64,000 nucleotides of DNA, from NCBI GenBank assembly GCA_023228465.1, contig JALOBC010000002.1, positions 1 to 64,000 of the forward strand, in the 5' to 3' direction. This document shows, in pieces, positions 23,653 through 61,302 of the stretch. The notes under the pieces were generated by a model. That model did not search any database, was not told the origin of the DNA, and saw nothing but the letters and a program-made list of their open reading frames with translations. Source of the stretch: Dokdonella sp. (GTDB lineage: Bacteria; Pseudomonadota; Gammaproteobacteria; Xanthomonadales; Rhodanobacteraceae). Position 1 is the stretch's first letter. The number at the start of each line of letters is the position of its first letter. The translations under genes and the position numbers were made by a program.

Positions 23653-23919
23653 TCATTCCGGGGTGTAGCCGGGTGGCTTGACCGAGCCTTCGCCGAAGAA
23701 ATAATTCTCCATTTCCGTGGCGATGAAGCTGCGTGTGGCGGCGTCCAGCGGGTTCAATCGATGCTCGTTGATCAGCATGGTCTGGTGGGCCAGCCATTGC
23801 TGCCAGGCTTGCCTGGATACGCTTGCATAGATGCGCTTGCCGAGCTCGCCCGGCCAGGGTGCATAGGCCAGTCCTTCGGCTTCGTGGCCGAGCTTGACGC
23901 AAAAGACGGTACGGCTCAT
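23653..23919 (-). CDS. yggX: Probable Fe(2+)-trafficking protein YggX (C-terminal part of the mutY reading frame)
   Basis: The 88 residues are a complete YggX: MSRTVFC with the conserved Cys7, then [35 protein letters not shown] and GYTPE at the C terminus. YggX is linked to iron-sulfur cluster protection and repair under oxidative stress. GGAGG lies nine bases before the ATG at 23919, so free YggX could be made by internal initiation. There is no stop between MutY and this ATG, so ribosomes that translate mutY would produce a MutY-YggX fusion. See the mutY entry. Confidence 0.85.
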
Positions 23920-25026
23920 CGGGGGTTCCTCCAGCGATTCGAGCAGCCGGCGCACCGGCGCGGGCAAGGCAGCGGCGGTCCAGTCCGCAGGCGTGCACCA
24001 GCGCCGCACGGGGTGCTCGGCGATGTGCTCCAGCGGGCGTACGTCGTCGCAGCGGATTGGCGCAACCTGCAGGCGGAAGTGGGTGAAGGCGTGGGTGAAC
24101 CCGGGCAGGCGCGTTGTCGGTCCGGGCGTGACGCCGCAATGATCGCGCAGGTAGGCCGCCAGTGCCGTGTCGTCGGATAGGCGCTGCGGCGTTTCGGGCA
24201 GGCTCCACAGTCGCGCCCACACGCCGACCGGCGGGCGGCGCTCGAGGAGCACGCGTCCGGCGGTATCGCGCAGCATCAGCAGGGTGGTCGCGCGCAGCGG
24301 TACGCTGCGCCGTGGCCTGGGCGTCGGCAGGGTGGCGACGCGGTCCTTGCGCAAGGCCTGACAACCGGCGGCCAGCGGACAGCTCGCGCAACGCGGGTGC
24401 GCGCGCGTGCACACGGTCGCGCCCAGGTCCATGATCGCCTGGGTGTAGTCGGCCACGCGCGTGGTCGGGGTGTGGCTTTCGGCCAGGTGCCACAGCTGGC
24501 GCTCGATGGCGGCCGTGCCTGGCCAGCCCTCCACACCGTGCCAGCGGGCCAGCACGCGGCGCACGTTGCCATCCAGAATGGCCTGGCGCTGGCCATGGGC
24601 AAGGGCCAGGATGGCCGCGGCGGTGGAGCGGCCGATGCCCGGCAGGCTGGCCAGCGCCGCGGCATCGCGCGGCAGCGCTCCGGCGTGCCGGGCCATGCAC
24701 AGGCGGGCTGCGCAATGCAGGTTCCGCGCCCGGCTGTAGTAGCCAAGCCCGGACCACAGCGCCAGCACCTGGTCCTCGCGGGCCGCGGCCAGGCTGGCGA
24801 GGGTGGGCAGGGCGGCCATGAAGCGCTCGAAATAGGGCACGACGGTGCGCACCTGGGTCTGCTGCAGCATCACCTCGCTGACCCACACGCGATAGGCGCT
24901 GCGCGGGTGCTGCCAGGGCAGGTTCCGGCGGCCGTGATGGTCATGCCAGGCGAGCAGGGCGCTCGCGAATCCATCCCGTTGCGTCGCGCCGGAAGCCGCT
25001 TCAGTGCTTGCCGGCGGGCGCATCAT
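23653..25026 (-). CDS. mutY: Adenine DNA glycosylase MutY fused in frame to YggX
   Basis: One open frame of 457 codons encodes MutY (about residues 1-369) and then YggX (370-457). MutY features are [11 protein letters not shown], the helix-hairpin-helix [14 protein letters not shown] with catalytic-region ILDGNVRR, the 4Fe-4S cysteines in [17 protein letters not shown] (C-x6-C-x2-C-x5-C), and a C-terminal Nudix-like 8-oxoG-recognition domain (about 245-365). MutY removes adenine mispaired with 8-oxoguanine. The junction reads [14 protein letters not shown] with no stop codon. Separate MutY proteins are about 350-360 residues, so only the stop is missing. The start (MMRPP) at 25026 overlaps the end of the AsmA-like gene; 25023 and 25032 are alternatives. 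A sequencing error near 23920 must be excluded. Confidence 0.88.
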
Positions 25027-25687
25027 GATCATCCCCGATGTGCAGCTCGACACCCTCCATGCGCAGTTCGCCGATGCGCAGTTCCGCCGCGCTGGCGGTG
25101 CCGGCCAGCGGTGGCAGCAGGACGGCGCTGCCGGGCTGCGCCTGCAGGCGCTGCAGCCAGGCGATGGCATCGCCGCGGCTGGCCAGGGTGAAATCGACGC
25201 CGCGCGCGATCGGCGTGCCATCGCGCAGCACCGTGCCGTCCTCGATGTGCAGGTGGAAGCGCAGGTCGGGGGCGCTGCCTCGCGGCCCGGACTGCGTCGC
25301 CAGCCAGGCATCGAGCGTGTCCAGGTCGAGCACCGGCCGACGCAGCTCCAGGCGCCTGATCTCGAACTGCTCGCTCCACAGAATTCGCCACGGCAGCACC
25401 ACCTCCAACGCATCGGCGCGGACCAGGGGCGCGGACGCACCGGGCTGGCGCAATACCGGTTCGGGCAGGGTGGCGTGCAGTTCCGGCACGAAGCCGTAGC
25501 GGGCGCCGGCGCCGAGGGTGAGTTCGGCAGCGAGATTCTTGCGCACCTGGGCGGCGAGGAAGGCGCCGATGCGCTCCGGGCGGGTGAAATGGCGCAACGT
25601 CGCGGCGGCGGCCAGCGCAAGCAGGGCCACCACCAGCAGCAGCCACCAGCGCCAGCGCCGCGTCCGCCTTGCAGGCGCTTCAGGCAT
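25001..25687 (-). CDS. AsmA-like inner-membrane-anchored protein
   Basis: The 228-residue protein has an Arg-rich N terminus, one membrane helix (about residues 11-31), then a periplasmic domain. [24 protein letters not shown] is reminiscent of AsmA N termini, followed by [23 protein letters not shown]. AsmA-like proteins are bridge-like or fragment proteins linked to outer-membrane lipid homeostasis; this is a short version. It overlaps ftsY upstream by 8 bases and mutY downstream by 26 bases, so it is co-translated in a ftsY - asmA-like - mutY - yggX block. The family assignment is moderate. Confidence 0.7.
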
Positions 25688-26810
25688 GGCCGGCCGGCGC
25701 CGTCGGCAGCAGGCCATCGACGAAGGCGGCGGCATCGAACTCGCGCAGGTCGCCGGCGGTTTCGCCGAGGCCGACAAAGCGGATCGGCAGGCCGAATTCG
25801 CGGGCCAGCGCGAACACCACGCCGCCCTTGGCGGTGCCGTCGAGCTTGGTGACGACCAGGCCGGTGACGCCGACCGCCTCGCGGAACTGGCGCACCTGGT
25901 GAATGGCGTTCTGACCGGTGGTGCCGTCGATCACCAGCAGCACTTCATGAGGTGCTTGCGGATCGAGCTTGCCGAGCACGCGCCGGATCTTGGCCAGCTC
26001 GTCCATCAGGCCCGTCTGCGTATGCAGGCGTCCTGCGGTGTCGGCGATCATCACATCGATGCCGCGCGCGCGTGCCGTCTGCAACGCGTCGAAGATCACG
26101 CTGGCCGCGTCGGCGCCGGAGCCTTGCGCGATCACCGGCACGGCATGGCGCGCGCCCCAGCTCTGCAACTGTTCGACCGCTGCGGCGCGGAAGGTGTCGC
26201 CGGCGGCCAGCAGCACGCCGCGACCTTCGTTGCGCAGGCGCCAGGCCAGCTTGCCGATGGTGGTGGTCTTGCCCACGCCGTTGACGCCGACCATCAGGAT
26301 GACGAAGGGCGTGTGACCGGCCGTGACGAGCGGCTGCTGCACGGGTTCCAGGCGCGCCACCAGCTCGGCACGCAGCGCGGCGAGCAGGGCGCCGGCGTCG
26401 GCGAACTCGCGCCGCGCCACCCGCTTGCGCAGCTTCTCGATCAGTTCGGTGGCGCCCGTGACGCCCATGTCGGCGGTGATCAGGCAGGTTTCCAGCTCGT
26501 CCAGGAAGGCATCGTCGAGCACCGGATTGCGCGTGAACAGGCTCGCCAGTCCGCGGGCGAAGCCATTCCCGGAGAGGCGCTCGCGCCAGGAACGGCGGGC
26601 GGGCACGGATTCGTGATCCGGCAAGGCGTCGGCAGGCGGGCCGGGCGGCGCATGCGGCGCGGCCGGCGGTGTCGTCATGGCCGGCCGGGTCGCCGGGCGC
26701 GCAAGGGGCGGCGGCGTCGCCGCGTCGCCGCGCTGCTCGTCGTGCACGGGCGCTTCCTGCGTGGCCGGCGCCGGTTCGGTAGCCGGCTTCTTCTTCAAGA
26801 ACTTCAGCAT
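25680..26810 (-). CDS. ftsY: Signal recognition particle receptor FtsY
   Basis: The 376-residue protein has a short Pro/Ala-rich acidic A domain (about 1-75) and an NG domain. GTPase motifs are [15 protein letters not shown] (G1), [20 protein letters not shown] (G3) and [10 protein letters not shown] (G4). FtsY docks SRP-ribosome complexes to the membrane for co-translational insertion. The start at 26810 (MLKFLKKK) gives the usual N terminus; the longer frame upstream overlaps the divergent rsmD. It heads the minus-strand block that includes mutY. Confidence 0.95.
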
Positions 26811-26877
26811 TGCGTAACGGATGGGCGAGAATGCGGGCGATGATGCTACCACCCGCCCCGCCCGGATAAGGCGTTGC

Positions 26878-28016
<1,139 letters not shown>

Positions 28017-42226: not shown

Positions 42227-43306
42227 ATGAAACCCACGAAGCGACTGCACGAACTCGGCCAGAGCCTCTGGCTCGACAACATCACCCGCGACATGCTCGA
42301 TGACGGCACGCTCGAGCGCTACATCGAGGACTACTCGATCACCGGGCTCACCTCCAACCCGTCGATCTTCGACAAGGCGATCAGCGCGGGCCACGCATAC
42401 GACAAGGGCATGCGCGAGAAATTTGCCCAGGGCAAGCATGGCGAGAAGCTCTTCATCGAGCTCGCGCTGGAGGACCTGCGCCGCGCGGCGGATCTCTTCC
42501 GCCCCGTCCACGAAGCGACGAAGGGCGTCGATGGCTGGGTGTCGATGGAGGTCTCGCCGCTCCTCGCCAACGACACCGATGGCAGCATCAAGGCGGCCGC
42601 GGCCATCCACCAGCAGGCGGATCGTCCGAATCTCTTCGTGAAGATTCCCGGCACGCCCGAAGGGCTGCCCGCCATCGAGCAGTCGATCCACAACGGCGTG
42701 CCGATCAATGTCACGCTGCTGTTCTCCGCGGACCAGTGCATGGCGGCGACCGAGGCCTGCCTGCGCGGGCTCGAGCGTCGCCAGGTCGAGGGCAAGAGCC
42801 TCGACATCGCCTCGGTGGTATCGGTCTTCATCAGCCGCTGGGACACCGCGGTAGCCGGTCGCGCCCCCGAGGGCCTGCGCGATCGGCTCGGCATTGCCGT
42901 CGCCCAGCGCACCTGGCGCGAGTGGTGCACCCTCACCGGCTCCGAGCGCTGGAAGCGGCTCCAGGCGGCTGGCGCGTTGATGCCGCGGCTCCTGTGGGCC
43001 AGCACCAGCACCAAGGACCCGGATGCACCCGACACGCTGTACGTCGAGGCGCTGGCCGCGCCCGGCACGATCGACACCATTCCCGACAAGACCCTCAAGG
43101 CCTTCGCCGACCACGGTGACATCCTGGAAACGATGGATCCGCAGGGCGCCGATTCGGAGGCGGTGCTGAAGGCATTCGAGGATGCCGGCATCGACATCGC
43201 CGCGCTGGCGCTGAAGCTTCAGCGCGACGGCGCAGCAGCTTTCGTCAAGTCCTGGAACGATCTCCTCGGCCGTATCGAGGAGAAGGGCAAGGCGCTGGCC
43301 GCCTGA
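42227..43306 (+). CDS. tal: Transaldolase
   Basis: The 359-residue protein is the long transaldolase form seen in actinobacteria and cyanobacteria. It has [44 protein letters not shown] and the Schiff-base Lys in [11 protein letters not shown] (about residue 262). It transfers a dihydroxyacetone unit between sedoheptulose-7-P/GAP and erythrose-4-P/fructose-6-P. GAGGAG precedes the ATG after a 20-base gap from the HAD gene. In E. coli tal is the shorter 317-residue type, so this gene may have a different origin. Confidence 0.94.
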
Positions 43307-43316
43307 GGACACCGAC

Positions 43317-44972
43317 ATGACCACTGCCATCGAGCCGCTGACCACCCTGCCTGAGTGGCAGGCGCTGGAGAACCACGCCACCGCGCTCCGCGCGCGCCAC
43401 CTGCGCGACCTGTTCGCCGCGGATCCCACGCGCGGTGAGCGGCTGGTCGCCGAGGGCGCGGGCCTGTACTTCGACTATTCCAAGCAGCGGGTGGACGAGG
43501 AGACCCTGCGCCTGCTCCTCGACCTTGCGCGCGCCCGCGGCGTGGCAGACCGGCGCGACGCCATGTTCCGCGGCGAGCACATCAACAGCACAGAGGATCG
43601 CGCGGTGCTGCACGTGGCGCTGCGCGCGCCGCGCGGTACGCGGATCATGGACGATGGCAAGGATGTGGTGCCGGAGGTCCATGAGGTGCTCGACCGCATG
43701 GCGGCCTTCGCCGAGGGGGTGCGGAGCGGCGCATGGAAGGGGCACGGCGGCAAGCCGATCCGGAACGTCATCAGCATCGGCATCGGCGGCTCGGATCTCG
43801 GCCCCGTGATGGCCTACGAAGCGCTCAAGGCCTACAGCCGCCGCGACATGGTGTTCCGCTTCGTCTCCAACGTCGATGGCACCGATTTCACAGAGGCGAC
43901 CCGTGACCTGGATGCCGGCGAAACCCTCTTCATCATCTGCTCCAAGACCTTCACCACGCTGGAAACGCTCACCAACGCGCACGCGGCACGCAGCTGGTGT
44001 CTGGAGCAGCTGGGCAAGGGTGCGGAGGAGTCCGGAGCCATCGCCAAGCACTTCGTCGCGGTGTCGACGAACGAAGAGGGCGTGCGCAAGTTCGGCATCG
44101 ACACGGAGCGCATGTTCGGCTTCTGGGACTGGGTCGGCGGGCGCTATTCGATGGATTCGGCGATCGGCCTTTCCACGATGCTCGCGATCGGCCCGGACCA
44201 CTTCCGGGAAATGCTGGCGGGCTTCCACGCCATGGACGAGCACTTCCGCACCACGCCCTTCGAGCGGAGCCTGCCCACGCTGATGGGCCTGATTGCCATC
44301 TGGAACAACAACTTCCTCGGCGCGGCGACGGTCGCCGTGCTGCCCTATGCCGAGTACATGAAGCGCTTTCCCGCCTATCTTCAGCAGCTCACCATGGAGA
44401 GCAACGGCAAGCACGTCACGCTCCAGGGAGCGCAGGTCGATTTCGAGACCGGCCCGATCTTCTGGGGCGAACCCGGCACCAACGGCCAGCATTCCTTCTA
44501 CCAGCTGATCCACCAGGGCACGCGCCTGGTGCCCTGCGATTTCATCGGCTTCTGCCAGGCGCTCAACCCGCTCGGCGACCAGCACGACCTCCTGATGGCG
44601 AACTTCTTCGCCCAGACCGAGGCGCTGGCCTTCGGCAAGACGCGGCAAGAGGTGCTGGCCGAAGGCACGCCCGAGGCGCTGGCACCGCACCGGGTCTGCG
44701 AAGGCAACCGGCCGACCACCACCATCCTCGCCGAGCGCCTGGACCCCCGCACGCTGGGCACGCTGGTGGCGCTCTACGAGCACAGCGTGTTCGTGCAGGG
44801 TGCGATCTGGAACATCGATTCCTTCGACCAGTGGGGCGTTGAACTCGGCAAGCAGCTTGCGACGCGGACGGCGAAGGAGCTGGCGAGCGACGAAGAGCCC
44901 AGGCTCGCGCACGACAGCTCGACCAATGCCCTGATCCGCCGCTACCGCGCGCGAAGGAACCCCTCCCCATGA
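43317..44972 (+). CDS. pgi: Glucose-6-phosphate isomerase
   Basis: The 551-residue enzyme has both PGI signatures, [14 protein letters not shown] (about residue 273) and [13 protein letters not shown] (about 503), plus [19 protein letters not shown]. It interconverts glucose-6-P and fructose-6-P, the junction between the Zwf and phosphoketolase/transaldolase branches encoded here. It lies 10 bases after tal and overlaps pgm by 4 bases (ATGA). Confidence 0.96.
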
Positions 44973-59955: not shown

Positions 59956-61302
59956 ATGTACGTTTTCCTGCTTTCCGCGCCGATCATCGACCGGCGTGTG
60001 CGACCTGTCCACCGAAGGGCGGCTGCGCTTGCGGTCGCCCTTGCCTGCCTGCTGACCGGCGTCTCCGCGCTGGCCGCGGGCGGCTCGGGCCTGAGCTTCG
60101 ACGAAGCCGTCCATGGCGCCGCCGAACGTGCACCGCTGGTGATCGCGCGGCACGCGGCGGGCGTCGCCGCCGTCGAGGAAGTGGCGCGTGCCGATGCGCT
60201 GCCCGATCCGCGGCTCGGTTTCGGCATCCAGAGCCTTCCCGTCGGAGGTCCCCATGCCTGGTCGCTGACCGAGGACGGCATGACCATGCGCCAGGTCGGC
60301 ATCACCCAGGATCTGCCCTCGCGCGCCAAGCGCCAGGCGCGCCGCGAATCGGCCGAGGCGCGGGTGGCCGAGGCCGAGGCCGAAAGCATCGCAACGGTGC
60401 TGGATGTGCAGCGCGCCGCCGCCAGGGCGTGGATTGATCTGTGGGCCGCCAGCCGCGAACGCGAGCTGCTCGAGGCGTTGCGCGAAGAATCCGCACTTTC
60501 GCTCGCTGCCACGCGGGCGCGGCTGTCCGGCGGCGGCGGCTCGGCGAGCGATGTGCTCGCCGTGCGCGCAAGCGACCTTGAACTCGCCAACCGGCTCGAC
60601 GCGGCCGCGGCGCGCATCGAACAGGCACGCGCCAGGCTCGCACGCTGGCTCGGCGAGAGCATTCCGCCCCGCGTTGCCGAGCCACCGGATTTCGCCACGC
60701 CGCCGGCAGAGGAGGCAGTGCTGGTCGAGCGCCTCGACCAGCAGGGGCCCTTGCTGGCCTGGGCTGCGCGCGAAGCCGCTGCCGAAGCCGCCGTGGAACT
60801 GGCGCGGGCCGAGAAGAACCCGGACTGGAGCATCGGCGGGGGTTTCGCCAAGCGCGGGGCGGGTGACTCCAACGTGATCTGGATGGAAGTCAGCGTCGCG
60901 CTGCCGCTCTTCCCGGGCAACCGGCAGGATCGCGGCATCAGTGCCCGGGCGGCGGATCTCGAGGCGCTGCGCGCGCGCCGCGACGACGCCCGGCGCCAGC
61001 AGGTCGAAGCGATCCGCAGCGGTTTCGCCACGTGGGCCGGCTACGGCCGCCAGGTTGCGCGCTATCGCGACGCGCTGTTGCCGCTGGCGGGCGACCGCAC
61101 GCGCACGGCGCTGGCCGCCTACTCCGGCGGCGCCTCGCTGCAGGGCTGGCTCGACGCACGCCGCGACGCGATCGACACGCGCATCGACTATGCCGCGGCG
61201 CTGGCCGCCTGGGGCGAGGCCTGGGCCGGACTGGCTTTCCTGCTGCCCGATCCCGCACTGCGTCCCTCGCCCGCCCCGCTTGCCATGGAGCTGTCCCGAT
61301 GA
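59956..61302 (+). CDS. TolC-family outer-membrane channel (CusC/CzcC-like)
   Basis: The 448-residue protein has a signal peptide (about 1-36). Two long helical repeats follow, with LPDPRLGFGIQSLP, GITQDLPSRAKRQARRESAEAR, ARAEKNPDWSIGGGFAKRG and VSVALPLFPGNRQDRGI. This is the pattern of the heavy-metal subset of TolC proteins, including PLFPGNRQ. It forms the outer-membrane exit of the efflux pump. CGGAG lies before the ATG at 59956. Its stop overlaps the adaptor gene (ATGA). Confidence 0.88.
   Translation: MYVFLLSAPIIDRRVRPVHRRAAALAVALACLLTGVSALAAGGSGLSFDEAVHGAAERAPLVIARHAAGVAAVEEVARADALPDPRLGFGIQSLPVGGPHAWSLTEDGMTMRQVGITQDLPSRAKRQARRESAEARVAEAEAESIATVLDVQRAAARAWIDLWAASRERELLEALREESALSLAATRARLSGGGGSASDVLAVRASDLELANRLDAAAARIEQARARLARWLGESIPPRVAEPPDFATPPAEEAVLVERLDQQGPLLAWAAREAAAEAAVELARAEKNPDWSIGGGFAKRGAGDSNVIWMEVSVALPLFPGNRQDRGISARAADLEALRARRDDARRQQVEAIRSGFATWAGYGRQVARYRDALLPLAGDRTRTALAAYSGGASLQGWLDARRDAIDTRIDYAAALAAWGEAWAGLAFLLPDPALRPSPAPLAMELSR

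Follow-up and report, generated by a model that had tools for sequence, protein, structure and literature searches.

MutY is an A/G-specific adenine glycosylase that excises adenine paired with 8-oxoG, and in E. coli MutY and YggX are separate proteins. In the 64,000-nucleotide stretch of Dokdonella sp. DNA analysed here (the window), one coding frame runs through both, which raises the question of whether a single MutY-YggX protein is encoded and, if so, whether it is an evolved device or an accident of gene arrangement. The two genes are known as neighbours: mutY and yggX of E. coli lie in one operon (Gifford and Wallace 1999, as cited in the excerpt of PMC11078426 available to us), and the same excerpt links YggX to protection against oxidative stress.

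Reading of the minus strand revealed a frame from 25026 to 23653 whose first stop is the terminal TGA at 23655-23653. The codons at the junction are CTC GAA TCG CTG GAG GAA CCC CCG ATG AGC CGT ACC GTC TTT TGC. Pfam matches follow the order HhH-GPD (residues 49-182), NUDIX_4 (249-363) and Iron_traffic (370-456), all complete and far above their cut-offs, and a small HHH match is barely above its own. The initial annotation had described one uninterrupted frame with both domains intact and with the 4Fe-4S cysteines of MutY and Cys7 of YggX in place, and all of this is confirmed. The stop-to-stop frame at the locus is longer, 763 residues, because the genome is GC-rich; the MutY start itself lies near 25026. 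None of the 42 matched solved sequences spans both domains, and separate MutY and YggX chains match each part. Of two marks looked for in a fixed fusion family, the first, a single stop-free frame over both domains, is present here. The features are collected in Table 1.

Table 1. Features of the mutY-yggX locus (positions in the window).
Feature	Position	Strand	Basis
Fused mutY-yggX coding frame, 457 aa	23656..25026	-	Frame reading and Pfam
MutY part, residues 1-369 (HhH-GPD, 4Fe-4S cysteines, NUDIX_4)	23920..25026	-	Pfam, NCBIfam and motif reading
YggX part, residues 370-457 (88 aa; Met start, Cys at YggX position 7)	23656..23919	-	Pfam, NCBIfam and solved chains
yggX ATG inside the frame, a likely second site of translation start	23917..23919	-	Sequence and comparison
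Shine-Dalgarno-like GGAGG, 8 nt upstream of the yggX ATG	23928..23932	-	Sequence and comparison with congeners
Run of five C at the junction, spacing one base longer than in congeners	23921..23925	-	Sequence and comparison with congeners

The MutY part matches PF00730 with 79.5 bits (cut-off 26.2) and PF14815 with 72.8 bits (cut-off 35). Among the NCBIfam models, TIGR01084 scores 340 bits, above its cut-off of 286.5, and NF008132 scores 374.8 bits, below its cut-off of 427. The 4Fe-4S motif C-x6-C-x2-C-x5-C is found at residues 206-222 of the fused protein, and the stretches SE..LQQ (from residue 50) and LDGNV (from residue 151), conserved in MutY, are present. Solved chains of the E. coli type of MutY match residues 17-239. 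By its domains and motifs, this part is a putative A/G-specific adenine glycosylase.

The YggX part matches PF04362 with 130.5 bits (cut-off 27) over profile positions 1-87 of 88, and NF003817 with 126.3 bits (cut-off 74). The solved chains 1yhd and 2mzy match residues 371-457 and 370-456, respectively. Cys7, reportedly called essential in the title of one published study, lies in MSRTVFC at residues 370-376. A whole-genome search found no yggX other than the fused copy. In the AlphaFold2 model of the fused protein (mean pLDDT 91, pTM 0.77), a MutY helix at residues 356-366 is followed by a short linker between 366 and 373 and by a YggX strand from 373. Both domains are modelled with high confidence, and the pTM of 0.77 leaves their predicted relative position unfixed.

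Several neighbouring loci were also read. A weak AsmA-like ORF (25001-25777, minus strand; 27 bits, under the Pfam cut-off) lies upstream, and some 26 nt of it are shared with the beginning of mutY. Further on, an SRP54-type GTPase ORF (25680-27014, minus strand), FtsY-like by its domains, overlaps at the 5' ends with a Cons_hypoth95 (RsmD-like) ORF (26821-27468, plus strand), so one of the two starts is probably placed too far upstream. On the plus strand, the ORFs at 42227-43306 and 43317-44972 encode a putative transaldolase and a putative glucose-6-phosphate isomerase by reading alone, and a stretch at about 46677-49058 matches a phosphoketolase ORF of another genome, G036.

Comparison with the 15 other genomes of the genus revealed how the two genes are usually arranged. 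The mutY and yggX genes overlap by 4 nt as ATGA in 12 of the 15, overlap by 25 nt in two and are separated by a 9-nt gap in one. The second mark of a fixed fusion family, conservation of the fusion in related species, is thus missing: none of these 15 genomes is fused, and the idea of a fusion conserved across the genus was rejected. A stop between the domains in closely related strains had been named beforehand as the observation that would speak against the fusion, and at the level of the genus such a separation is what we found, the closest genome being only about 68% identical to the window in MutY. In all six congeners that carry a GGAGG, its distance to the yggX ATG is 7 nt; in the window, with its run of five C, it is 8 nt. 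The shared frame can thus be accounted for by a one-base difference in length. The GGAGG also supports the suggestion in the initial annotation that the internal ATG could yield free YggX, giving two products from one frame. A promoter scan gave a single site, located on the opposite strand, and turned up no terminator.

Based on the layout in the genus, we propose that the locus probably represents a recent, near-neutral fusion of a coupled gene pair, giving both MutY-YggX and free YggX from the internal start. The arrangement of the genes is observed, and it suggests tight coupling of mutY and yggX within an operon. In the congeners with the ATGA overlap, the start codon of yggX coincides with the end of mutY, and a ribosome ending mutY could restart on yggX; the excerpt of PMC10666635 at hand describes short overlaps as a requirement of termination-reinitiation in other gene pairs. 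In the lineage of the window, a one-base length change in the short C-run, presumably in the direction leading to the fused state, would have brought mutY into the frame of yggX and removed the mutY stop. The predicted products would be a 457-residue MutY-YggX with a linker of about six residues, plus free YggX, initiated at the internal ATG, which has a GGAGG of its own. Such a change is probably close to neutral, since extra residues at the C-terminal tail of MutY are probably tolerated and the start codon of YggX is retained.

The alternative with the strongest claim is a sequencing or assembly error, in which the true length of the C-run differs and the genes overlap as in the congeners. 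A one-base difference inside a homopolymer is a classic site of error, the species is represented by a single genome, and the fused state occurs once in the family among the matches listed for 233 genomes. In addition, the authors of GeneTack anticipate that singleton frame changes of one class will be sequencing errors (PMC3711429, main text as far as accessible). The quality of the assembly argues against this explanation. When 967 kb of the window's assembly was compared with 1.15 Mb of three congeners, none of the 218 non-redundant, strongly matching reference frames was frameshifted, although frameshifts near gene ends would escape this test. In roughly 193.5 kb of compared sequence from the window's genome, runs of at least five C or G number 115, and, as the comparison found no frameshift, none of them is known to be in error.

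Six of the 218 frames gave a second piece in a different frame, and these and the other candidates raised were dismissed as follows. For L297:3543-6695, L294, L201, L199 and L304, the main matched stretch contains the Pfam domains, apart from at most one residue. The candidate L297:43-1107 (minus strand) has no Pfam match and runs antisense to putative transaldolase and glucose-6-phosphate isomerase genes, and was judged a shadow. Three candidates among 175 frames in a reverse comparison were likewise shadows, with the Pfam domains in the main piece and one domain ending three residues past it. Another reverse comparison gave four candidates among 78 frames, namely the fusion itself and three in which one piece falls in a frame that looks non-coding; the 11 and 10 internal stops seen in this comparison arise in frames read from stop to stop. 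The fusion did not reappear in the 175-frame comparison, probably as the G036 stretches end at base 60000, inside yggX. Errors therefore appear to be uncommon in this assembly, and we consider an error at the junction unlikely.

The other question is whether the fused state is shared by relatives. In the family, the window's genome alone has a stop-free match over both domains among the matches listed for the 233 genomes; these extended down to an E-value of about 6e-127, and the full-length ones listed scored 2.4e-154 or better. Long open frames around yggX are frequent in the family and mostly are not fusions, and large open-frame lengths were rejected as a sign of fusion, most being GC-rich frames over separate or overlapping genes. 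An even sample of the class comprised 369 genomes, of which 366 gave a match; among the matches listed, those spanning both domains without a stop came from the window's genome, G431 and G297, the best scores being listed first so that a very divergent fusion could escape. The G297 locus (L168), from a one-contig genome of 88% completeness, has several N in its doubtful stop-free frame and was set aside as a clean fusion. In three other families, three of 39 genomes around G431 are fused, in three genera, as are one of 47 around Ectothiorhodospira magna and, among the matches listed, at least two of 121 around Methylocucumis oryzae. The samples of the family, the class and the G431 set overlap, so these counts are not additive. 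The full-span counts would also overlook any fusion whose linker is long enough to break the match in two.

Reading of the junctions as frames gave a similar picture. From 219 loci shorter than 6000 bases, with 11 left without a decision and duplicates merged, 170 distinct junctions were obtained, of which eight are fused (one with N), 21 have a 4-nt overlap, 21 another overlap, 119 a gap of 0-150 nt and one another layout. This set was partly chosen by high match score, so that eight in 170 is no rate, and genes cut by contig ends fall outside the judgement. In a scan of named genomes, two of the 80 retained as best out of 573 are fused, again no rate, since the selection favours in-phase pairs. 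Of nine relatives of E. magna whose loci were read (L312-L320), seven have a mutY that extends 35 nt into yggX in a different frame, and in two a 12-nt gap separates the genes. In the Methylocucumis family, the MutY match at G762:C1:3628053-3629074 falls into two pieces, by frameshift or error. Fixation could be checked in three genera, those of the window, G431 and G617, G623 being the single genome of its genus. Unfused genomes of the same genus are found beside G431 (G624, G300, G625) and beside G617 (G612, G613, G618, G619), and the fusion is not fixed in any of the three.

The fused cases also differ in how they were joined. In L163 and L182 a stop codon became a sense codon, in L181 the stop was displaced through small length changes, and the E. 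magna locus L040 has five bases more than L314-L316. The internal yggX ATG is retained in all seven clean fused cases. The window, L163, L182 and L322 have a strong purine-rich stretch before it; that of L181 (AACGGGAA), L040 and L321 (only GAGAGAG) is weaker. A tree built from joined MutY and YggX alignments, with the seven clean fused tips, places the window with the unfused L104 (support 0.993), L163 of G431 with L177 (0.999), L321 with L329 (0.985) and L322 with L323 (0.889), and L040 as sister to L314-L316 (0.999). L181 and L182 fall near each other in one small, weakly resolved group with the unfused L184 and L185 (L182 with 0.65, L181 beside L185 with 0.177); here one gain with later losses, instead of separate gains, is possible. 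Judged from alignments and junctions, the fused genomes are scattered among unfused ones, and the fusions appear to have arisen via different small changes.

These results bear on the idea of a selected bifunctional protein, in which YggX tethered to MutY would protect or re-supply the 4Fe-4S cluster under oxidative stress. Both domains are intact, the operon neighbours have linked biology (PMC11078426, in the excerpt available), the fusion recurs in several lineages, and the predicted structure joins two confidently modelled domains by a short linker. However, the fusion is absent from congeners wherever this can be checked, the fused cases are scattered in the tree, their junctions and linkers differ with the internal ATG kept in every case, and MutY and YggX are separate in most relatives read. 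We therefore regard this explanation as quite improbable for the window, and the earlier proposal of a covalent cluster guardian that evolved as such finds no support in a fusion that is absent from the 15 congeners and reached elsewhere by different small changes. What the scattered distribution speaks against is a conserved device; a local benefit is compatible with it. There is a slim chance that tethering is useful and that the repeated gammaproteobacterial fusions reflect selection for an iron or thiol guard at the MutY cluster, in which case the internal start would continue to supply free YggX. Slippage of the ribosome or the polymerase on the run of C, yielding a mixture of fused and terminated MutY, would fit the junction codons CCC CCG and the stop that the neighbouring frame offers at ATGA, but the five-C run is short, the congeners have no slippery site in common and nothing specific points to slippage, making it highly improbable.

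The proposed near-neutral fusion of a coupled pair also suits the wider survey. The same kind of join seems to have arisen several times in Gammaproteobacteria, and such joins resemble accidents of a close gene arrangement more than they do a conserved machine. For the window's genome alone the biology is modest, the fusion being rare, not fixed and explicable by one base. Taken together, MutY-YggX fusions that arose naturally, and apparently independently, in several lineages can be set beside unfused relatives, which makes the idea of YggX as a guard of iron-sulfur proteins testable on a defined client. The fusions also illustrate how an overlapping gene pair may become a fused protein through a very small change.

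No published description of a MutY-YggX fusion was found in the open-licence literature. The main text of the GeneTack paper, as far as accessible (PMC3711429), does not name mutY or yggX, and the one passage on fusion in the excerpt of PMC11078426 concerns the NUDIX domain. Among known systems, the E. coli mutY-yggX operon shares with the window the gene order and the two proteins, which are separate in E. coli and lie in a single frame here. The Thiotrichaceae MutY with a partly overlapping YggX gene (PMC11078426, same excerpt) resembles the overlap in 14 of the 15 congeners; unlike the window, that pair is described there as neighbouring genes and not as one protein. The unidirectional pairs with a -4 nt overlap and termination-reinitiation (PMC10666635, in the part at hand) have the ATGA layout seen in 12 of the 15 congeners, whereas the window lacks this stop, and only internal initiation could give free YggX. 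As in fusions of neighbouring genes in general, separate genes would here have become one protein.
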